A stretch of 28,094 nt of DNA from an uncultured Rhodospirillales bacterium. GTDB taxonomy: Bacteria; Pseudomonadota; Alphaproteobacteria; Acetobacterales; Acetobacteraceae. The DNA lies in the NCBI GenBank assembly GCA_903844785.1, contig CAIMVB010000349.1, positions 1 to 28,094 on the forward strand. The letters are read 5' to 3'. Below the pieces are notes generated by a model, which was given only the letters and a program-made list of their open reading frames with translations, was not told where the DNA came from and ran no database searches. The translations under genes and the position numbers were made by a program. The first letter of the stretch is position 1; each line of letters opens with the position of its first letter. Below, one piece after another: positions 12,963 to 21,859 of the stretch.

Positions 12963-13298
12963 TCACCCTGGCGGGATATCCGCCAGGGCGTAGAAAACCT
13001 GCTTGCCCGCCTGCGTGAAGCGCGCGACTTCCTGATCCGCGCCTTGGCTTGGTCCGCCAAGGCGCAGCACTGCATCGCAGCGTTCCGCGAGTGCGAGCGA
13101 GATGGGCATCATCACCTCATCAAACACATCCGCTTGCGCCGCAGCAATAATGGGCAGCGCCATATTCACGCCAATTACCGGCACATGACCAAGGCGCAGT
13201 ATGGCGAGCGCCGCGTGGTTCATTTCCGCAAGCCGCGCGGCGCGTAGCGCCGCATCCGCGCCACCGCTGGTATAGGGTGCCGCGATCATGATCCACAT
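12963..13298 (-). CDS. Small nucleoside 2-deoxyribosyltransferase-like protein (DUF4406 type)
   Basis: This 111-residue protein begins MWIMIAAPYTSGGADAA. The AAPYTSGG start, the GHVPVIGVNMALPI segment with its conserved Asn, and LAERCDAVLRLGGPSQGADQ followed by a predicted nucleotide-binding end (KQVFYALADIP) match the nucleoside 2-deoxyribosyltransferase / DUF4406 fold. Such proteins cleave or transfer the N-glycosidic bond of deoxynucleosides, but many small members are uncharacterised. The alternative Met4 start at 13289 gives 108 residues. It is the last gene of the long minus-strand run, 3 bases after otnC. Fold assignment is moderate and function is unknown. Confidence 0.7.
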   Translation of the reverse strand: MWIMIAAPYTSGGADAALRAARLAEMNHAALAILRLGHVPVIGVNMALPIIAAAQADVFDEVMMPISLALAERCDAVLRLGGPSQGADQEVARFTQAGKQVFYALADIPPG

Positions 13299-13301
13299 GG
13301 G

Positions 13302-13934
13302 TCAGCCGAAAGTGCTGAGCAGATCATCCACCTGCGCCGGCGTCAGGCTCCGCGCGCCCGCGCCGCGCAGCAGCAGCGCGAGGCGCGCGGCTTCTTCCAA
13401 TTCCTCAGCGGCATGCACCGCATCTTCCAGCGTGCGGCCTGATACCACGGGGCCGTGATTGGCCAGCAGCACAGCCTTTGCAGTTTTGGCCGCTTCGTGA
13501 ATGTCGCTTTCCATCGCCGCATCGCCCGGACGATAATAGCGGATCACCGGCAAAAGCCGCCCGACACGCATGACGAAATAGGGCGTCAGCGGCGGGATGG
13601 GCGCCGTTTCATCCGGGGCGGCGAGGCAGGCGATGGCGGTGGCATGGGTTGAATGCAAATGCACCACCGCAGCAGAATCGGGCCGCGCGGTCAGCACCGC
13701 GCGATGCATGAAGACTTCCTTGGAAGGCTTATCGCCCGACACATGCGAAAAATCCGGCGCAAGCTTTGAGATGCGCGCGGGATCAAGCCGCCCCAGGCAG
13801 GAATTGGTCGGCGTCATCAGGAAGCCATCGGGCAGGCGCACGCTGATATTGCCTGCCGTGCCCACGGAATAACCGCGCGCGAAAAGCGAGGCACCAAGCG
13901 CGGCAAGCTGTGCGCGTAGCGCTGCCTCATCCAT
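13302..13934 (-). CDS. otnC: 3-oxo-tetronate 4-phosphate decarboxylase (class II aldolase family)
   Basis: This 210-residue class II aldolase/adducin-fold protein shows YSVGTAGNISVRLPDGFLMTP (22-42), PSKEVFMH with the catalytic Glu73, the zinc ligands His92 and His94 in VHLHSTHATA, and the third His160 in LLANHGPVV. OtnC decarboxylates 3-oxo-tetronate 4-phosphate to dihydroxyacetone phosphate in the catabolism of D-threonate, L-threonate or erythronate. The preceding kinase gene, OtnK-like and overlapping by 8 bases, supports this over fuculose- or ribulose-phosphate aldolase. I use the ATG at 13934; a TTG at 13940 is a possible earlier start. No matching dehydrogenase or isomerase is adjacent. 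Confidence 0.88.
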   Translation of the reverse strand: MDEAALRAQLAALGASLFARGYSVGTAGNISVRLPDGFLMTPTNSCLGRLDPARISKLAPDFSHVSGDKPSKEVFMHRAVLTARPDSAAVVHLHSTHATAIACLAAPDETAPIPPLTPYFVMRVGRLLPVIRYYRPGDAAMESDIHEAAKTAKAVLLANHGPVVSGRTLEDAVHAAEELEEAARLALLLRGAGARSLTPAQVDDLLSTFG

Positions 13935-15186
13935 GGTCAAAGGCCTTCAGGAAGAAATCACGCGCGCCGAAATTGCCGGATTTCAACGCCAGATGCAGCC
14001 CGCGCGGTTCGGCGAAAGTCCAGGGCACACCTGGATCGATTTCGGGTCCAATGCGCAGCGCCGTCACGCCAAGGCGCTGCACCACGGCACCTGATGTCTC
14101 TCCGCCGGCCACCACCAAGCGGCCCACGCCTTGCGCGACCAGCCCTTCGGCAATCGCGGCCATGGCGGTTTCAATCAAGGCGCCGGCGGCATCGCGGCCA
14201 AGCTTCGCCTGCAAGGCCGCGACCTTTTCTGGCGGTGCGCTGGCGGCGATTACCACCGGGCGATCTGCGGCCAATTTGCCCGTGACCCATTCGAGTGCTT
14301 GCGCGGTCAAGGCCGCCGCATCGGGCGTGGCGAGTGCATCCAATTCCAGCACCGGCACATGATCCCGCGCGAGGCCGATTTGCCCCAGTGTGGCGCGCGA
14401 ACAAGACCCGGCAACCACCGCAGCCATGCCCTGCATCGGCGGCAGGCTGGCCGCATTGCCGCGCGCGGGCAGCAGGCCGGCACGACGGAAATTCTCGGGC
14501 AGGCCCATCGCCACACCTGACCCGCCAGTGATCAGCGCATGCTGCGCTGCCGCTTCACCAATCGCGAGCAAATGCTGATCTGTCACGGCATCCACAATCG
14601 CGTAGCGCCGGCCTTGTTCGGCAAGCCGCATCATGGCCTGGCGGGTGGCAGCGGCGCCCTGTTCCACGGTGTTGAAAGGCACCAGCCCAACCGCGCCATC
14701 CGTCTGCCGTCCCAGGACGCGCACAAGATTCGCATCTGTCATCGGCGTCAGCGGGTGGTTTTCCATGCCGCTTTCATTCAGCAGCGCATTGCCGACAAAA
14801 AGATGCCCAAGGTAGATGGTGCGGCCATTGGTCGGGAAAGCCGGGCAGGCCAAGGCAAAGCCTGAACCCAGGCGCTTCAACAGCGCATCCGCCACTGGGC
14901 CGATATTGCCTTGATCCGTGCTGTCGAAAGTCGAGCAATATTTCCAGAAAATCTGCTTCGCCCCGGCAGCGAGCAGCGCATCACACGCGGCGAGCGATTG
15001 CGCCACGGCTTCACCCACCGGCGCGGTGCGCGACTTCAGCGCGATGATGATCGCATCTGCTTCCGGCAAAGGCCCGGTCGGCACGCCAATCACCTGCACG
15101 GCCGTCATGCCGCCCTTGACCAGCGTATTGGCGAGGTCCGTCGCCCCGGTGAAATCATCCGCGATGCAGCCGAGAAGAAGAGGCAT
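13927..15186 (-). CDS. otnK: 3-oxo-tetronate kinase (four-carbon acid sugar kinase)
   Basis: This 419-residue protein of the DUF1537 / four-carbon acid sugar kinase family starts MPLLLGCIADDFTGATDLAN; the ADDFTGATD motif (9-17) is the family's sugar-acid-binding signature. KYCSTFDSTDQGNIGPV, CPAFPTNGRTIYLGHLFV and the C-terminal nucleotide-binding VVAGGETSGAVVQRLG follow. OtnK phosphorylates 3-oxo-tetronate with ATP, the product being decarboxylated by OtnC, whose gene overlaps this one. The length matches the family. It begins 6 bases after the stop of the methyltransferase gene, so it may be co-transcribed with the glycosyltransferase and methyltransferase although the chemistry seems unrelated. 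Confidence 0.92.
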   Translation of the reverse strand: MPLLLGCIADDFTGATDLANTLVKGGMTAVQVIGVPTGPLPEADAIIIALKSRTAPVGEAVAQSLAACDALLAAGAKQIFWKYCSTFDSTDQGNIGPVADALLKRLGSGFALACPAFPTNGRTIYLGHLFVGNALLNESGMENHPLTPMTDANLVRVLGRQTDGAVGLVPFNTVEQGAAATRQAMMRLAEQGRRYAIVDAVTDQHLLAIGEAAAQHALITGGSGVAMGLPENFRRAGLLPARGNAASLPPMQGMAAVVAGSCSRATLGQIGLARDHVPVLELDALATPDAAALTAQALEWVTGKLAADRPVVIAASAPPEKVAALQAKLGRDAAGALIETAMAAIAEGLVAQGVGRLVVAGGETSGAVVQRLGVTALRIGPEIDPGVPWTFAEPRGLHLALKSGNFGARDFFLKAFDHG

Positions 15187-15192
15187 TTTTAA

Positions 15193-16068
15193 CTACCTTG
15201 CAGGAGGAAGGGCGAGGAAATCCTGATGGCCGATGCGCACGGCAAGCTGCCCGGCATCTGCCTGATCCTGCCTGATATCCAGCCAATCCAGAATGGCATC
15301 AGCGCCGCGTCTTTCCCAGCCGAGTGCGGCCGTGGCATGGCCATCGGCAATGGCGCGGGTGAAGGCGCGGGCACGACGATCCACCAACCAATCACTCGGC
15401 GCGCGATGAATGGCATAGCCATGCGCGGCGAAGGCTTCGGCTAGTGCGGCAGGCGCCTGCGGGCCGAGTGATGCGCCACCAAAGCCCTTGTCGCGTGCCT
15501 GATCTCGGCGAAAGCCGCGCGCTACCAGCGCATCGGCTGGATGCGGCGGGCTGAAGCGTTCACGCCCGGTCACATTCAGCGCGGCGTAGAAGGGCAGGCG
15601 CCGCGCAGCACAAGCAGCCGCCATGGCTTCCACCCAACCGCGTGAGACCAAATCGCAAAGCGCGGTGCTGAGAACAGCATCCACGCGTTCCAGCGGCAGA
15701 TTGGCAGGTGCTGCGGCAAGATCGGCAAGGATCGCTTCAACGCGCCAAGCGCCTGCGGGGCTATGCACCAAAAGCGCGCTACGGCCCGGATTGGTGGCGG
15801 GCCAGCCTACGGCCTCTGCCCGTTCGGCAATGGTGTCAAAAGCGCGGGAGACTAATTCCGGATCGCTATCTACCAGCGTCCAGCTTTGTGCGCGGCCAAT
15901 GAAATGACCAAGCCAGCGGAGCAAGCTGCCGGTGCCCGCGCCAAGATCCAGCAGGCGTGGTCGCGCAGGCAGGGAAGCCGCGAGCATTTCGGCCAATTCC
16001 GGATTGCGCGCGACCGCGTCATGCGGTTCGCGCAGATCAAGCCAATCGCCGTCAAAGCTTTCGGTCAT
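15193..16068 (-). CDS. Class I SAM-dependent methyltransferase
   Basis: This is a 291-residue protein. SAM-binding motif I is LLDLGAGTGSLLRWLG (39-54) and motif II is WTLVDSDPELV (about 63-73). A middle region with LERVDAVLSTALCDLVSRGW fits the motif IV/V area; the rest is family-specific with ALNVTGRERFSPPHPAD and RAPSDWLVD. Substrate is not predictable from sequence. Its start overlaps the glycosyltransferase stop (ATGA) and otnK begins 6 bases after its stop. The tight coupling to a GT4 enzyme, and to RibD-, MDR- and PTPS-like genes upstream, suggests methylation of a small glycosylated metabolite rather than RNA or protein; this is inference. Confidence 0.85.
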   Translation of the reverse strand: MTESFDGDWLDLREPHDAVARNPELAEMLAASLPARPRLLDLGAGTGSLLRWLGHFIGRAQSWTLVDSDPELVSRAFDTIAERAEAVGWPATNPGRSALLVHSPAGAWRVEAILADLAAAPANLPLERVDAVLSTALCDLVSRGWVEAMAAACAARRLPFYAALNVTGRERFSPPHPADALVARGFRRDQARDKGFGGASLGPQAPAALAEAFAAHGYAIHRAPSDWLVDRRARAFTRAIADGHATAALGWERRGADAILDWLDIRQDQADAGQLAVRIGHQDFLALPPAR

Positions 16069-17108
16069 GGTGTCAGCGCTTTCAGAAACGCAGCAGCGCG
16101 GTCTGACCAGCGCGGCAGCGCCTGGCCGGCCTGCCAGGAAGCTTCGGCCATATCGGCGCGGAGTGCGGTATCAAAAATCGGCCGGCGCATCGCGCGCGAC
16201 AGGGAATTATAATCATCCACCGCCGCAACCACTGCCGCCGCTTCCGGCACAATATCCGCAATCGCGCCGCCCGAGGTGATGGCCAAAGGCAGGCCGCGCG
16301 CCATGGCTTCCGCCGCCGCCATGCCATAGCCTTCAAAACGTGTCGCAAGGCCAAAAAGATCAGCCCGCGCATATTCCGCCTCCAGCGCCGCATCGGGGAG
16401 CGCGCCCAGGAAGCGCACACGCTGCGCGATGCCAAGCTCGGCCGTCAGTGCACGCAGCCCATCGGCATGAACAGGATCACGCGTTGCATCGCCGGCAATG
16501 GCCAGCGACCAATCGAGATCGGTCAGCCGCGCCAGCGCGCGCAACAACACATCATGCCCTTTGCGCGGCACCAGCAGGCCAACACTCAGAATGGCGCAGC
16601 CCGGGCCAGCGGAACCGACAGCACGCGGCGCCGGGTCAGTGCCCGGTTCAACCACGGTGATGCGGGCAGGGTCCACGCCAAAATCTGCTGGCAGGCTGCG
16701 CGCTGTCAGGTTCGATGTGGTGATAATCCGCGCGCAGGCATTGAACAGCACACGCTCAGCGGCCTTCAGCGCGGCCCGCCATGAGTCTGGCGCACCGGGT
16801 TCCAGCGCCGTTGGGTGATGGATCAGCGCCACCGCGCCGCGTTTGGTGAGTTCATCGGCCAGCGGCAAGAAACTTGGCAGGCCCAGCCCATCAATCACAA
16901 TACGCGCGCCCGCTGGAATGTCGGTCAAAGCGGCGCGGGCGGCTTCAGTCGCCTCATCATCAGGGAAGGGATGGCGCCCGGCCAATTCCACCACGCGCAT
17001 TTCCTGCCCAAGCGCGCTGAGCCCTTCGACCATGCGGCGATCATAAATATAGCCGCCAGAAATCGCGCTGAAGGGCGCGGGGACGAGGAGGTGGATGGCT
17101 CGGTTCAT
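16065..17108 (-). CDS. GT4-type (GT-B fold) glycosyltransferase
   Basis: This 347-residue glycosyltransferase starts MNRAIHLLVPAPFSAISGGY, where the SGGY loop is the N-terminal acceptor-side glycine motif. The C-terminal nucleotide-sugar domain has SVGLLVPRKGHDVLLRAL, and the EX7E motif lies in FEGYGMAAAEAMARGLPL. No membrane helix or signal is seen, so it is cytosolic or peripheral. Donor and acceptor are unknown. A longer frame to 17237 exists but overlaps the toxin gene and adds non-family residues; the ATG at 17108 overlaps the toxin stop as ATGA. It likewise overlaps the methyltransferase start. I infer it decorates a small molecule made by the upstream pterin/flavin-like genes, because no polysaccharide genes are nearby. 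Confidence 0.88.
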   Translation of the reverse strand: MNRAIHLLVPAPFSAISGGYIYDRRMVEGLSALGQEMRVVELAGRHPFPDDEATEAARAALTDIPAGARIVIDGLGLPSFLPLADELTKRGAVALIHHPTALEPGAPDSWRAALKAAERVLFNACARIITTSNLTARSLPADFGVDPARITVVEPGTDPAPRAVGSAGPGCAILSVGLLVPRKGHDVLLRALARLTDLDWSLAIAGDATRDPVHADGLRALTAELGIAQRVRFLGALPDAALEAEYARADLFGLATRFEGYGMAAAEAMARGLPLAITSGGAIADIVPEAAAVVAAVDDYNSLSRAMRRPIFDTALRADMAEASWQAGQALPRWSDRAAAFLKALTP

Positions 17109-17548
17109 GTGGTCTTCCGGGCGCCTTTCTGCGGATCCCAAGGGTCTATCACCGCTATGCCACAACCGGCAAAATCGGTGATGTTGCGGGTGGCCATGGC
17201 GGCGCCATGGGCCCGGGCGGTGGCGGCGATCTGGCAATCGGCGAAGCTTATGGGCCGGCCCGCCGCGCGGCGTTCCAGAAACACCAGCACAAAGGCGCTG
17301 GCGGCGGCGCTGTCAAAGGGAAGGATGCGGCCCGCAAAATCTTCGGCGATCATGGCGTCAATTTCTGCCATCAGGCGCGCGCGCCGCTTGCCCTCTGGCA
17401 GCATGGCGGCGCCGCGGCGCAATTCAGCCTCGGCTATTGCGCTCAGATAGAGATCGATGGAAGCCTGGTTGGCGAACCAGCGCAACACGGCCTGATCAGG
17501 TTCAGGACGCATGAGTTCAGAAACCACATTTGTGTCCAGCAGGATCAT
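17105..17548 (-). CDS. PIN-domain toxin of the FitB/VapC type
   Basis: This 147-residue PIN-domain ribonuclease starts MILLDTNVVSELMRPEPD, the FitB-like signature. The acidic active-site residues are all present: Asp5, Glu42, Asp104 in SFADCQIAATA and Asp125 in TRNITDF. Such toxins cleave tRNA or other RNA when their antitoxin is degraded. A TTG at 17566, six codons earlier, overlaps the antitoxin stop (TTGA) and is an alternative start, but family similarity begins at the ATG at 17548. The stop overlaps the ATG of the glycosyltransferase, so toxin and glycosyltransferase translation are linked. An unusual place for a toxin: in the middle of a metabolic operon. Confidence 0.9.
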   Translation of the reverse strand: MILLDTNVVSELMRPEPDQAVLRWFANQASIDLYLSAIAEAELRRGAAMLPEGKRRARLMAEIDAMIAEDFAGRILPFDSAAASAFVLVFLERRAAGRPISFADCQIAATARAHGAAMATRNITDFAGCGIAVIDPWDPQKGARKTT

Positions 17549-17562
17549 GCGCGGCGCCGGGG

Positions 17563-17805
17563 TCAATCCAGGCGGGGGGCGTCGGGCATGGGATCGCGCG
17601 CGGGCAGGTCAAGCTCCACGCCGCCGAGGGCAGCAAAACGGCGATGAATGGCCTGGCCCAAATCCGGCGAAGGCGCGACCCTTCCCATGGCTTGGCGCAG
17701 GATGTCTCTTGCCTCTTCTTCCATGGAACGGCCATGTTCAGCGGCGCGGATGCGGAGTTGCCGCTTCAGCGCCTCATCAATATTGCGAATGGTGATGGCG
17801 GCCAT
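17563..17805 (-). CDS. FitA/VapB-type ribbon-helix-helix antitoxin
   Basis: This 80-residue antitoxin starts MAAITIRNIDEALKRQLRIR, a ribbon-helix-helix DNA-binding domain; the beta strand AAITIRNI and helix EALKRQLRIRAAEHGRSMEEEARDIL match FitA closely. The C-terminal part (about 45-80, ending DPMPDAPRLD) would wrap the toxin's active site. The ATG at 17805 was chosen over one at 17853 because it follows a purine-rich GAAAAGGGGG region and starts exactly at the RHH domain. It and its toxin should autorepress the promoter just upstream, where an inverted repeat sits. Confidence 0.9.
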   Translation of the reverse strand: MAAITIRNIDEALKRQLRIRAAEHGRSMEEEARDILRQAMGRVAPSPDLGQAIHRRFAALGGVELDLPARDPMPDAPRLD

Positions 17806-17828
17806 GGCGCCCCCTTTTCGTTGCCAGC

Positions 17829-17857
17829 GTTGTAAGCATTGATAGCAATGCAATCAA
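17829..17857 (-). promoter_or_regulatory. Promoter of the toxin-antitoxin pair
   Basis: On the minus strand TTGATT (17857-17852) and TACAAC (17834-17829) are separated by exactly 17 bases, and the -10 lies about 24 bases before the antitoxin ATG. Spacing and position fit a sigma-70-type promoter. The 17-base spacer is almost fully occupied by a perfect inverted repeat. Confidence 0.6.
17836..17851. promoter_or_regulatory. Inverted-repeat operator, probable antitoxin binding site
   Basis: GCATTG-ATAG-CAATGC is a perfect 6-base inverted repeat with a 4-base centre. It lies between the -35 and -10 of the antitoxin promoter, where a bound ribbon-helix-helix antitoxin would block RNA polymerase, as known for FitAB and VapBC autoregulation. 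Confidence 0.6.
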
Positions 17858-17880
17858 GTGGCTTGAGGGCTTGATCGGCC

Positions 17881-18294
17881 TCAGCCCGGCTCCTCGCCCG
17901 GTGCCCCTTCATAAGCGGCCCAGGCGATATGGCTTTCGCGCAGCAGCACCTTGAGGCCCGTGACAGCCTTGCCGCCCGCGCCAAGCCGGCCCTCCGCCAG
18001 CGCGGCAGACAGGCAACGATGGATATGCAGGCAGAGATATTCCGTGGTGGTGTTCTGCCCGGCGAAGACCGGTTCTGCATCCAGATTGCGATAATCGAAG
18101 CCATCCAGAATGTGGCGCAATTCCACCTTGGCGGCGGCGATATCCACCAGCAGGTTCAGCGGGTCGAGCTTCGGCGCGCGAAATTCCGCCTCCACAACGA
18201 AGGTGGCGCCATGCAGGCGCTGGGCGGGGCCGAATTCGGCGCCGCGGAAGGAATGGGCGATCATTACGTGATCAACGACGGTCAGGCTGAACAT
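17881..18294 (-). CDS. PTPS/QueD-like protein with altered active site
   Basis: This 137-residue protein has the tunnelling fold of 6-pyruvoyl-tetrahydropterin synthase / 6-carboxytetrahydropterin synthase. Lined up by eye with E. coli QueD, it keeps His14 (VMIAHSF), His28 (RLHGATF), the NTTTEYL helix with Glu85 and the substrate-anchoring Glu120 (LLRESH). However, the catalytic Cys before the LHGH motif is absent (PAQRLHG), the second zinc His of LHGH is Ala30, and the LDHHYLN motif with the catalytic His reads FDYRNLD. It is therefore unlikely to perform standard QueD or PTPS chemistry; it may bind a pterin-like ligand or do another reaction. It follows the MDR gene by 31 bases and precedes the toxin-antitoxin promoter. 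Confidence 0.8.
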   Translation of the reverse strand: MFSLTVVDHVMIAHSFRGAEFGPAQRLHGATFVVEAEFRAPKLDPLNLLVDIAAAKVELRHILDGFDYRNLDAEPVFAGQNTTTEYLCLHIHRCLSAALAEGRLGAGGKAVTGLKVLLRESHIAWAAYEGAPGEEPG

Positions 18295-18325
18295 GGTTTG
18301 GTTGTATCCTCTTCAGTCGGGCGCG

Positions 18326-19309
18326 TCATGACCCGTAGGTGACAAGGGGGCAAAGCGGCGCGGGCTGACCGGGGGCGGGGTTGAGCAGGCCGGGCAGCGC
18401 CTCAGGCAAATCCTCAAACCGCGTGGCGGGGCCGATCAGCGCTTCAAGTGCCGGGTCTGCAAGCAGGCCGAGCGCGTGCGCCATGCGGTCGCCAAAGCTG
18501 CGGCGCCCACGCATGGCGGGTGCGACGGCGCCGACCTGGCTGGAAATTAAGCGTAGGCGGCGGGAATGAAACGCCTCGCCTAAGGGCAGCGCCACTTCCT
18601 GTGCGCCGAACCAGGAAGCTTCGATGATGCGCGCTTCAAAAGCCGCAAGGCTGAGTGCTTGGCGGAGCCCGGCCGAATTGGCGCTGGCATGGATGATCAA
18701 TTCCTGATCGGCAGGCGCCGCTTCGGGGGCGGCGAAGCGGATGCCAAGCGCCTCGGCAATGCTGCGGCGGGAAGCATCGAGGTCTATGATCGTCACCGCC
18801 ATGGCCGGGATGCGCGCCAGCAGATAAGCCACCAGCAGCCCAACCACGCCGGCGCCAATCACCAAGGCGCGTTCGCCGGGCAGAGGCTGCGCATCCCAAA
18901 GAATATTCAGCGCGGTTTCCATATTGGCGCCAAGCACGGCGCGGCTATCCGGCACCGCATCCGGGATGGGGATACACATGGCGGCGGGTGCGAGGAAGAC
19001 ATCCTGATGCGGGTGGAGGCAAAACACGCGCTTGCCTTGCAGTTCTGCCGCGCCTTCGATGACGCGGGCCACGGCTGAGTAGCCGTATTTGACTGGGAAG
19101 GGGAACTCGCCCGCCTGCAAGGGGCAGCGCATCACGCCCCATTGGTTTTCTGGCACCTTGCCCGCCAGCACCAGCCGTTCCGTCCCACGCGAAATGCCTG
19201 AAGCCAGCATCCGCAGCAATACTTGGTCAGCACCGCGCGCGGGCAGGGCCTCTGCGCGGAGTTCCGCCTGTCCCGGCGCGATGGTCCACAAGGCGCGCGC
19301 GATGGTCAT
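18326..19309 (-). CDS. MDR-family dehydrogenase lacking the catalytic zinc ligand
   Basis: This 327-residue medium-chain dehydrogenase/reductase has an N-terminal GroES-like domain (about 1-125) with ASGISRGTERLVLAGKVP at 36-53, where typical zinc alcohol dehydrogenases have a GxCGSD motif; no Cys is present, and the four-Cys structural zinc loop is also missing. The Rossmann domain has VIGAGVVGLLVAYLLA (150-165) and an acidic Asp in IIDLD that favours NAD(H). SGIS-x-GTE-type N-termini occur in BchC-like oxidoreductases, but no photosynthesis genes are present. Its ATG overlaps the RibD-like stop (ATGA). I infer it is a redox step on the same small molecule as its neighbours. Confidence 0.84.
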   Translation of the reverse strand: MTIARALWTIAPGQAELRAEALPARGADQVLLRMLASGISRGTERLVLAGKVPENQWGVMRCPLQAGEFPFPVKYGYSAVARVIEGAAELQGKRVFCLHPHQDVFLAPAAMCIPIPDAVPDSRAVLGANMETALNILWDAQPLPGERALVIGAGVVGLLVAYLLARIPAMAVTIIDLDASRRSIAEALGIRFAAPEAAPADQELIIHASANSAGLRQALSLAAFEARIIEASWFGAQEVALPLGEAFHSRRLRLISSQVGAVAPAMRGRRSFGDRMAHALGLLADPALEALIGPATRFEDLPEALPGLLNPAPGQPAPLCPLVTYGS

Positions 19310-20091
19310 GCAGGGCCCCCGGGCTTCGCGCGATCCAGCGCGGCGTCAATCAATATATCCGGCGCAATATCATGCACGCGCCAGGCAAAGCGCAGCCCAT
19401 CGGCGATGCGCGCCACTTCCGGCAAGGTGAAGGCAGGAATGCCGGACCCAAGCAGCACGGGCGCCACGGTGACATGCAGCCGATCAAGGCAGCCCGCCGC
19501 GAGAAAGCGCGAAACCGTGAGCCCGCCGCCTTCGACGAAAATGCGGGAAGCACCGCGCGCCTTCAGCGCCGCAAGCAAGGCCGGAATGGCCAGCCCGCCA
19601 CCAGCGGCGCGCGGCAGGCGCAATACTTCGGCCATGCCATGCTGATCCGCGCCCCCCGCATCGGCGGCGCAGACCAGCAGCGTGGGCGGCCCGCCTTGGA
19701 AAATACCGTAATCGGCGGAGAGTTTGCGATCCGTATCCAGCACGACGCGCAGCGGATCAGGCCCCGGTGCTTCGCGCGTGGTCAGGCGCGGATTGTCATG
19801 CCGCACCGTGCCCGCCCCCACCACCACGGCATGGCAAAGCGCGCGCAGCCGATGCGTATGCAGAATATCGCCCGGGCCGCCGATCCATTGGCTGGAACCG
19901 CCCGCGGTGGCGATGCGCCCATCAAGCGTTTGCGCGAGGCGCCCGATCACCCGGCAGCCGTCAGCGGCTGCGGGCGGCGCCAGTACCGGGCCAAATAGCG
20001 CGGCAAGCGGGCCAGCAGGCAGGGCGTCAGCGCCGCCATCGCGCAAGGCGAGCAGCGCTTCCCAGGCCGAAAGGTGATTGCCGGTATCCAT
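19306..20091 (-). CDS. RibD C-terminal-type (dihydrofolate-reductase-fold) reductase
   Basis: This 261-residue protein is made only of the RibD_C reductase domain after a roughly 45-residue N-terminal extension; there is no deaminase domain. Motifs are GRLAQTLDGRIATAGGSSQW (50-69), a segment ALCHAVVVGAGTVRHDNPRL (85-103 region), DPLRVVLDT, IFVEGGGLTVSRFLAAG with Glu187, and VTVAPVLLGSG. In riboflavin synthesis this domain reduces the ribose of 5-amino-6-ribosylaminopyrimidinone phosphate using NADPH; stand-alone homologues serve other pathways, including pterin modification. Here it starts the minus-strand run and overlaps the MDR gene, so I expect a dedicated pathway rather than general riboflavin synthesis. 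No other rib gene is present. Confidence 0.87.
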   Translation of the reverse strand: MDTGNHLSAWEALLALRDGGADALPAGPLAALFGPVLAPPAAADGCRVIGRLAQTLDGRIATAGGSSQWIGGPGDILHTHRLRALCHAVVVGAGTVRHDNPRLTTREAPGPDPLRVVLDTDRKLSADYGIFQGGPPTLLVCAADAGGADQHGMAEVLRLPRAAGGGLAIPALLAALKARGASRIFVEGGGLTVSRFLAAGCLDRLHVTVAPVLLGSGIPAFTLPEVARIADGLRFAWRVHDIAPDILIDAALDRAKPGGPA

Positions 20092-20775: not shown

Positions 20776-21291
20776 TCAAGGCGCCGCCAAATTGATGGCA
20801 AAAAACGGCAGCAGCGCCTGCATGATCAGCCCCGCTGCGACCGGCAGGAAGAAGGAAGACGCCAGCCGCAGCGCCACAAAGCGCCAGCCCAGCACCGGGT
20901 ATTCCCAAGTCAGGATGCGGTGCATCGCGTAAACTGACCAGGCCGTGAGCAGCGCGGTCATTTGCGCCACACCTGCCCCCGCCTTGCTGAAGGTGATCAC
21001 CAAGGGAAAGGTCACGAATGGCCCGCCCGGCATGACCCCGCCGGCGAGTGACGCGATCAAGATGCCCGAAAGCCCGGAATCATCGCCAAGCCATTCGGTC
21101 GCGATGTCTGCAGGCACCAGTTCTGACAGAAACGCGGCCATGGGCAGCGCCACGCAAAACATCGGCAGAATGCGCCAAAAGCCGCGATTGGTTTCCACCA
21201 CCGCGCGTTTGGCCTGGGGGACGCCGCGGCGGATGCACAACGCCAGCACGGCAAGGGCGATGACCCAGAGAATAATTTGCGGTCCGCTCAT
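20776..21291 (-). CDS. Half-size YraQ/ArsP-like permease, second subunit
   Basis: This 171-residue integral membrane protein has about five hydrophobic segments. Its core LGDDSGLSGILIASLAGG followed by VMPGGPFVTFPLV is the repeat motif of the YraQ/DUF318/ArsP permease superfamily, whose usual members are about 300 residues or more with two such halves. Its ATG overlaps the stop of the upstream half-permease gene (ATGA), so the two are co-translated and likely form a heterodimer. ArsP exports organoarsenicals; other members' substrates are unknown. No ars genes or regulator are adjacent, so the substrate is open. It ends 39 bases from the convergent mini membrane protein gene. Confidence 0.82.
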   Translation of the reverse strand: MSGPQIILWVIALAVLALCIRRGVPQAKRAVVETNRGFWRILPMFCVALPMAAFLSELVPADIATEWLGDDSGLSGILIASLAGGVMPGGPFVTFPLVITFSKAGAGVAQMTALLTAWSVYAMHRILTWEYPVLGWRFVALRLASSFFLPVAAGLIMQALLPFFAINLAAP

Positions 21292-21815
21292 TTCGGCGGT
21301 TCCCAGGCAATCGGCACGCGCCGCGCCAGCCAGCCCGCGATCATCGGCATGGGGAAGGTGATCAGCGTGCGCAGCAGCGCGAAATCCAAGCCCAGCAGCG
21401 GGGCTTCATAGACCAACAACTTCTGAAAGCCATTGAGCGACCAGGCAAGAATGAAGGCGACCAGTGCGCCCTTATCCGCCCCGGCACCGGCCAGCACCAG
21501 CACCAGCGGGAAGGCCGCCATGGGTCCACCAGGGGAGAGCGTGCCGACGAGCGTTGCGATGAACAGCCCAAATAGCCCGCTATCCGCCCCCATCCAGCGC
21601 GCCAGCGCATCGGGGGACAGCAATTGCCGCAACGCCGAGGCCAGCAGCAGCCCCGCCACCAAGGATGGCACAATGAACAGGAACAAGTCCCAGGCATGCC
21701 AAAGCGCCGTCATGAAGGCGCCAGTGCCCCGCAAGTGCCAGGTAGCAAGCCCTGCCGTCACGGCGATGAGGAAGATGACCACGAGGGAGGCGTGGCGGCG
21801 GAGCAGGATCAACAC
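21288..21815 (-). CDS. Half-size YraQ/ArsP-like permease, first subunit
   Basis: This is an integral membrane protein of about 175 residues with about five hydrophobic segments. The core MGADSGLFGLFIATLVGT followed by LSPGGPMAAFPLVLV parallels the motif in its partner, showing the two arose from one repeated unit. No ATG exists in frame before the first membrane segment; possible starts are GTG at 21815 (used here), TTG at 21824 or TTG at 21851. The helix WHAWDLFLFIVPSLVAGLLLASAL precedes the motif. With the partner it probably makes one complete permease. A strong hairpin lies upstream at 21860-21882. Confidence 0.78.
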   Translation of the reverse strand: MLILLRRHASLVVIFLIAVTAGLATWHLRGTGAFMTALWHAWDLFLFIVPSLVAGLLLASALRQLLSPDALARWMGADSGLFGLFIATLVGTLSPGGPMAAFPLVLVLAGAGADKGALVAFILAWSLNGFQKLLVYEAPLLGLDFALLRTLITFPMPMIAGWLARRVPIAWEPPK

Positions 21816-21859
21816 GCGGCGCAAACTGCAACTTGGGGACGCTACGCGCAAGAGAGGGC

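Follow-up and report, generated by a model that had tools for sequence, protein, structure and literature searches.

What do five neighbouring enzyme genes of an uncultured Rhodospirillales bacterium (Acetobacteraceae) make together? They lie in the window analyzed here, the whole 28,094-nt stretch of contig CAIMVB010000349.1 (assembly GCA_903844785.1, a genome that is 92% complete), and encode a RibD_C-type reductase, an MDR-superfamily dehydrogenase, a tunnel-fold protein of the 6-pyruvoyl tetrahydropterin synthase family (PTPS), a glycosyltransferase of family GT4, and a putative class I S-adenosylmethionine (SAM)-dependent methyltransferase (MT). The five enzymes are a conserved module, and on balance we think that they form the local part of a pathway leading from a ring-opened product of GTP to a glycosylated, methylated molecule of the pteridine or ribityl-pyrimidine type.

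Among 146 genomes searched, the source genome counted, 64 carry an MDR orthologue (threshold E < 1e-90): 34 of 35 in the genus (source genome included), 25 of 54 in the rest of the family, and 5 of 57 in the rest of the class. An MDR profile at E 1e-50 matched 51 of the 387 genomes sampled from the class and 32 of the 397 sampled from the phylum, the two samples overlapping. Eighty of the at least 588 stretches matched by the MDR profile were treated as named loci. Counting only loci with room, that is, on contigs long enough to hold the gene in question, RibD_C is present in 79/79, PTPS in 78/78, GT4 in 72/78, and MT in 64/75; the complete set occurs in 63 of the 80, a count in which short, truncated contigs are scored as misses. 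A second set of 40 loci outside the family was hand-picked, and is thus non-random, from the class and phylum profile matches (L254 was kept despite its fragmented MDR). PTPS is found in all 40 and GT4 in 39; with room, MT is found in 35/38 and RibD_C in 32/38, running in the opposite direction in 21 of the 32 loci that have it. The complete set is present in 29 of the 40.

All five genes also occur in Zoogloea (Betaproteobacteria; L162) and on plasmids of Thiodictyon (Gammaproteobacteria), Microbacterium (Actinomycetota), Methylosinus, and three Rhizobiaceae. Plasmids of Streptomyces fungicidicus and Neorhizobium carry four, with no RibD_C in the stretch, and a plasmid stretch of Rhodobacteraceae SC52 has no GT4; gene names on all these plasmids were confirmed by hidden Markov models (HMMs). 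In two low-GC genomes, G235 (L253) and G385 (L252), creatininase, MDR, PTPS, GT4, MT, RibD_C, and GTP cyclohydrolase II (GCH II) form a seven-gene island with differing flanks. An earlier note on this DNA had staked its proposal on the five families occurring together beyond this strain, and they do so across Alpha-, Beta-, and Gammaproteobacteria and Actinomycetota. A coincidental neighbourhood was rejected, since the same partners recur around MDR in loci of many families. Gene order varies and content stays constant, which argues for a shared function and not merely an inherited neighbourhood; the module is probably horizontally mobile.

The earlier note had the PTPS protein act on dihydroneopterin triphosphate, an assignment that its active site does not support. 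Ala24 stands at the position of the PTPS-I cysteine, Gly22 at that of the PTPS-II cysteine, and Gln25 at that of the PTPS-III glutamate, and the HGH triplet is replaced by HGA, with Ala30 in place of the second histidine. The window protein accordingly matches neither the CxxxHGH motif of PTPS-I (QueD), as defined in the relevant passages of PMC5445326 and PMC5041015, nor CxxxxxHGH of PTPS-II (biopterin) or ExxHGH of PTPS-III (folate), and is left without the catalytic cysteine, one zinc histidine, and the glutamate of ExxHGH. It does carry FGPAQ, the mark of subfamily PTPS-IV in the account given in PMC5445326, as do 126 of the 131 loci with a PTPS (133 scanned). HGA was likewise detected by pattern in 126 of the 131; four of the five misses have HGA by eye, and Haloarcula alone has HSH. 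The neighbourhood of the gene also fits PTPS-IV, as RibD_C lies next but one to it. Glu120, presumably the glutamate that anchors the pterin, is invariant in the alignment (A6).

The nearest solved structure by profile match is 3d7j (SCO6650 of Streptomyces coelicolor; E 1.7e-61), which shares FGPAQ and HGA in the alignment; it differs from the window protein in being actinobacterial, and its name in the PDB is only 'Uncharacterized protein'. The paper on this structure is said to report that zinc, the catalytic triad, and PTPS activity are all lacking. Across 12 plasmid stretches, the PTPS-IV gene is annotated as 6-carboxytetrahydropterin synthase in 11 and as 6-pyruvoyl tetrahydropterin synthase in one, labels that would be misannotations. 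No other PTPS-family match was found in the 92%-complete source genome, and queuosine was rejected as a product because this sole match has a broken QueD motif (QueC, QueE, and QueF were not searched). On two Streptomyces plasmids (L292 and L298), PTPS-IV occurs with none of the other cluster genes nearby, and both have a cupin, an MBL-fold hydrolase, a BTAD regulator, and a sigma-70 factor in its vicinity, possibly a second use of PTPS-IV.

The RibD_C protein matches a single Pfam family, PF01872, with no deaminase domain. Its best PDB match is 6p8c, a 2,5-diamino-6-ribosylamino-4(3H)-pyrimidinone 5'-phosphate (DARPP) reductase (E 4.9e-23), and Asp57 of the LDG motif, Asp99, and the EGG motif at 187-189 are invariant in 12 aligned rows; at 95.5 bits it falls below the cut-off of 186.45 for the archaeal DARPP reductase equivalog TIGR01508. 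An additional RibD_C match is present in 17 of 18 genomes searched, in a frame of at least 378 residues in 16 of them, and the cluster RibD_C therefore looks like an extra protein rather than the riboflavin enzyme. Judging by length alone, we take the second match, in a frame of at least 378 residues, for the riboflavin RibD. Only one RibD_C was found in the source genome; since a second one, in a frame of at least 378 residues, is present in each of 12 other family genomes tested, the missing copy is likely an assembly gap. The best NCBIfam match of MDR, over residues 12-254, is the BchC dehydrogenase, at a score far under the TIGR01202 cut-off (50.5 vs. 291.25 bits). No cysteine of MDR is invariant (alignment A1), and its best PDB matches are generic MDR dehydrogenases (E 3e-9). 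GT4 matches glycosyltransferases in the PDB, including D-inositol 3-phosphate glycosyltransferase (best E 2.1e-13), and the predicted fold of MT resembles class I SAM methyltransferases.

A GTP cyclohydrolase, as the earlier note had held, must come from outside the window: a full-length GCH II is encoded on contig C372 of the source genome and GTP cyclohydrolase I (GCH I) on C17. The note had also suggested looking for nearby cyclohydrolase genes; these exist in other genomes, and their type is GCH II or GTP cyclohydrolase III (GCH III), not GCH I. Of the 51 class genomes carrying MDR, at least 18 have GCH II no more than 5 kb away from it (distances taken by hand), and 12 of the 40 outside-family loci have GCH II near the cluster. 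G316, from the genus of G385, has MDR and GCH II spaced as in G385. In the cluster GCH II proteins, three cysteines, which we take to be the zinc ligands, and a tyrosine matching Tyr105 of E. coli RibA are invariant in 10/10 rows; the GCH II of the source genome, probably shared with riboflavin synthesis, also keeps this tyrosine. In a Streptomyces plasmid cluster (L293), the tyrosine is replaced by methionine and a creatininase gene adjoins; methionine at this position reportedly halts the reaction at the formylated intermediate. Of 18 cluster genomes tested for GCH I, 15 have it, and the three smallest (G235, G316, and G385, small AT-rich genomes of 1.4-1.6 Mb) gave no match, FolE2 not having been searched.

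The halophilic archaeon Haloarcula pelagica has its own version of the cluster, on a plasmid (L321) that bears GCH III, MDR, a PTPS of another subclass (with HSH), MT, a CDP-alcohol transferase, and GT4. Its GCH III (PF05165, E 2.2e-82), which is not homologous to GCH II, adjoins MDR, PTPS, and MT. According to the sections of PMC9478397 on these enzymes, GCH III yields the formylated intermediate, and a protein initially annotated as a creatininase is a proven formamidase acting on it. The cluster creatininases of L253 and L293 belong to the creatininase family PF02633. Creatininase genes lie near the cluster in 9 of the 40 outside-family loci and are also found without it, and the creatininase was rejected as an obligatory partner. 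GCH II with tyrosine, GCH II with methionine plus a creatininase, and GCH III thus converge on one entry compound. Taken together with the altered PTPS-IV site, the cluster-linked GCH II or GCH III indicates that this entry compound is probably one known from riboflavin synthesis, the ring-opened ribosylaminopyrimidine phosphate.

What was observed directly is which genes make up the set, how widely it is conserved, which type of cyclohydrolase is linked to it, and that the PTPS site is altered; from this the following route can be proposed. GCH II, encoded elsewhere in the genome, would form (formyl)diamino-ribosylaminopyrimidinone 5'-phosphate, and in some clusters the creatininase-family protein would strip off the formyl group where needed. 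RibD_C would then turn the ribosyl into a ribityl group by reduction, with no deamination beforehand, so that the 2-amino group is kept. PTPS-IV may grip the 2-amino-4-oxo-pyrimidine edge through its invariant glutamate and carry out a metal-free ring closure or a step on a side-chain carbon. The BchC-like MDR would oxidize or reduce a side-chain carbonyl, after which GT4 would attach a sugar and MT a methyl group. What we infer is the order of these steps, the substrate of each, the identity and role of the product, and the targets of glycosylation and methylation. The suggestion of the earlier note that the product is a modified pterin- or flavin-like molecule survives as the best guess; its passage through dihydroneopterin triphosphate is not supported.

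Several observations weigh against this proposal. Neither GCH II nor creatininase lies near the cluster in any of the 78 family-type loci scanned. Among 32 family genomes, full-length GCH II goes exclusively with the cluster (24/24 with MDR, 0/8 without); this pairing failed in the class sample, where full-length GCH II is present in 42/51 genomes with MDR vs. 116/336 without by hand count (Fisher p 1e-10, with kinship uncorrected and the profile built from cluster copies). RibD_C is missing from 6 of the 38 outside-family loci with room, and from the Streptomyces cluster stretch; nor was it found in the Haloarcula stretch, whose PTPS shows 25% identity and carries HSH in place of HGA, a divergence that means its chemistry may differ. 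Creatininase-like genes exist in genomes without the cluster (G082), and the cluster creatininases are candidate BrbF-type formamidases by family membership; the complementation results of PMC9478397 include a distant homologue of the proven formamidase that failed to complement. RibD_C could, finally, reduce a pterin ring instead of the sugar.

That last point separates the proposed route from its main rival, a split version of the GCH I reaction. GCH II, with a formamidase, would give the deformylated ribosylaminopyrimidine monophosphate, PTPS-IV, which like GCH I is a tunnel-fold protein, would carry out just the rearrangement and ring closure to a dihydroneopterin monophosphate without need of zinc, RibD_C would reduce the dihydropterin, and MDR, GT4, and MT would decorate a true tetrahydropterin. 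RibD_C shares the fold of dihydrofolate reductase. Such a route accounts for the association of a tunnel-fold protein whose zinc motif is broken with GCH II or GCH III instead of GCH I, and it agrees with the invariance of Glu120 and with the three cluster genomes in which GCH I was not found. We nevertheless consider it unlikely, as RibD_C is nearest to the ribosylaminopyrimidine reductases and LDG, Asp99, and EGG are conserved; an action on the sugar like theirs would block the rearrangement. A conventional route, put forward in the earlier note, would run from GCH I to dihydroneopterin triphosphate, with PTPS acting as in tetrahydrobiopterin, folate, or queuosine synthesis, followed by reduction, glycosylation, and methylation. 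The source genome and most other cluster genomes do have GCH I, and pterin glycosides are described for Chlorobium (in the part of PMC5683033 that concerns them) and, by a title cited in PMC1971073, for Synechocystis. The residues missing from PTPS-IV, the GCH II or GCH III type of the cluster cyclohydrolases, and the three carriers in which no GCH I was found (with the limit on FolE2 given above) make this route very improbable.

An auxiliary riboflavin branch, supplying an extra or modified flavin for secretion, would have its early steps in common with the proposed route, and the relevant part of PMC9478397 proposes two riboflavin modules for Sinorhizobium, one of them with a creatininase-annotated formamidase. 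This branch has a slimmer chance still: lumazine or riboflavin synthase is listed in 0 of 13 annotated plasmid stretches, for which the gene table is incomplete, and no riboflavin step is known for PTPS-IV or MDR. Synthesis of the deazaflavin F420 shares the ribitylaminopyrimidine precursor with the proposed route, and 6 of the 18 cluster genomes, the source genome included, have a CofH (TIGR03551) that scores above its cut-off. A role in F420 synthesis is also stated for PTPS-IV, from unpublished work, in a passage of PMC5041015; the open-licence full texts gave no published activity for this subfamily. No CofH above cut-off was found in the other 12 cluster genomes, among them all three small genomes and six that are single contigs and 98-100% complete, so that F420 is unlikely as the general product of the cluster, and we rate it the least probable of these routes. 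In the source genome (G000:C13:6353-8590) and five close relatives, the CofH domain lies in a frame of 839-841 residues, presumably an FbiC-like protein, and F420 synthesis may therefore occur there; four further members of the family, one of them from the same genus, gave no CofH match when tested.

How does the proposed pathway compare with known systems? PTPS-IV of COG0720 (AGeNNT cluster 62 in PMC5445326) shares FGPAQ and has PF00925 (GCH II) and PF01872 (RibD_C) as neighbours; this association is thus already published. MDR, GT4, MT, creatininase, CDP-alcohol transferase, and the exchange of GCH II for GCH III go beyond the account of PTPS-IV in section 19 of that paper. The early riboflavin pathway (GCH II, formamidase, and RibD or the archaeal reductase) resembles the cluster in the families used for ring opening, reduction, and perhaps deformylation, but the cluster RibD_C has no deaminase domain, and PTPS-IV, MDR, GT4, and MT take the place of the later enzymes. 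Biopterin glycoside synthesis, with its pteridine glycosyltransferase, would likewise end in a glycosylated pteridine; it begins with GCH I, a canonical PTPS, and sepiapterin reductase, whereas the cluster uses GCH II or GCH III and PTPS-IV. The earlier note knew of no characterized pathway with this set, and none came to light in the open-licence full texts searched, subscription papers lying outside the search. The same texts yielded no report of a module of five to seven genes, of the exchange for GCH III, or of carriers without GCH I.

The gene arrangement given in the earlier note is confirmed: five co-directional enzyme genes lie on the minus strand (coordinates in the table), with ATGA overlaps at RibD/MDR and GT/MT and a 31-base gap between MDR and PTPS. 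VapC also overlaps the GT gene, and FitA overlaps VapC.

Table. Genes of the cluster and its flanks in the 28,094-nt window.
Feature	Positions	Strand	Match or remark
RibD_C-type reductase, single domain	19306-20091	-	PF01872, E 5.6e-40, 137.7 bits vs. cut-off 24.1
MDR-superfamily dehydrogenase, distantly BchC-like	18326-19309	-	weak partial Pfam matches; NCBIfam bchC E 1.6e-13
PTPS-IV (FGPAQ) tunnel-fold protein, altered active site	17881-18294	-	PF01242, E 1.7e-19
FitA-like ribbon-helix-helix antitoxin	17563-17805	-	PF22513, E 5.6e-20; outside pathway
PIN-domain VapC-type toxin	17105-17566	-	PF01850, E 1.3e-15; outside pathway
GT4-family glycosyltransferase	16065-17108	-	PF00534, E 2.8e-25, 89.3 bits vs. 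cut-off 26.4
Putative class I SAM-dependent methyltransferase (MT)	15193-16068	-	Pfam 25.6 bits vs. cut-off 27; predicted fold
3-oxo-tetronate kinase (OtnK) and 3-oxo-tetronate 4-phosphate decarboxylase (OtnC)	13302-15186		NCBIfam equivalogs
DUF1937 protein	12963-13298		PF09152
Two ArsP_1 half-permeases	20776-21851

The FitA/VapC-type pair (17105-17805) between PTPS and GT4 was rejected as part of the pathway because of its patchy distribution among relatives: 11 of the 14 close relatives carry it, and all 10 of the more distant members of the genus that were examined lack it. Measured between aligned ends, the PTPS-GT gap is 8 bases in the 3 close relatives without the pair and 771-800 in the 11 with it. 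With room, the antitoxin is found in 3 of 69 named loci, and the distribution of the toxin is identical. The pair is a recent insertion or the remainder of a patchy loss, and the earlier note was right to leave it aside.

The OtnK and OtnC genes lie directly downstream of the cluster. Among loci with room, 56 of the 71 named ones and none of the 27 outside the family have OtnK after the cluster; OtnK is therefore taken as family synteny, and both genes were dropped as pathway members. The DUF1937 gene after OtnC has the same placement in many loci of the genus. The ArsP_1 genes are upstream of RibD_C, as they are in 19/63 (first) and 19/60 (second) named loci with room; they are possibly an exporter, or possibly synteny. 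Neighbours in the 40 outside-family loci, taken from an HMM recount with seed models derived from the same loci, include CDP-alcohol phosphatidyltransferase (18), YceI (11), FkbM (11), an MdoH-like GT2 (10), sulfatase-like proteins (9), and cytochrome b561 (7), which suggests a membrane, periplasmic, or export side of the pathway in other lineages. The 78 family-type loci have one GT2 and none of CDP-alcohol transferase, GCH II, YceI, FkbM, sulfatase-like protein, creatininase, or b561.

That the set is retained so widely, with plasmids and small AT-rich genomes among its carriers, points to a generally useful compound; no report of such a compound was found in open-licence full texts. We raise, tentatively, the possibility of an undescribed and widespread GTP-derived redox cofactor or signal, a glycosylated and methylated pteridine of the ribityl or neopterin type that is often coupled to membrane lipids or exported. 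A correct assignment would repair the misannotation of PTPS-IV and make the function of this subfamily directly testable.

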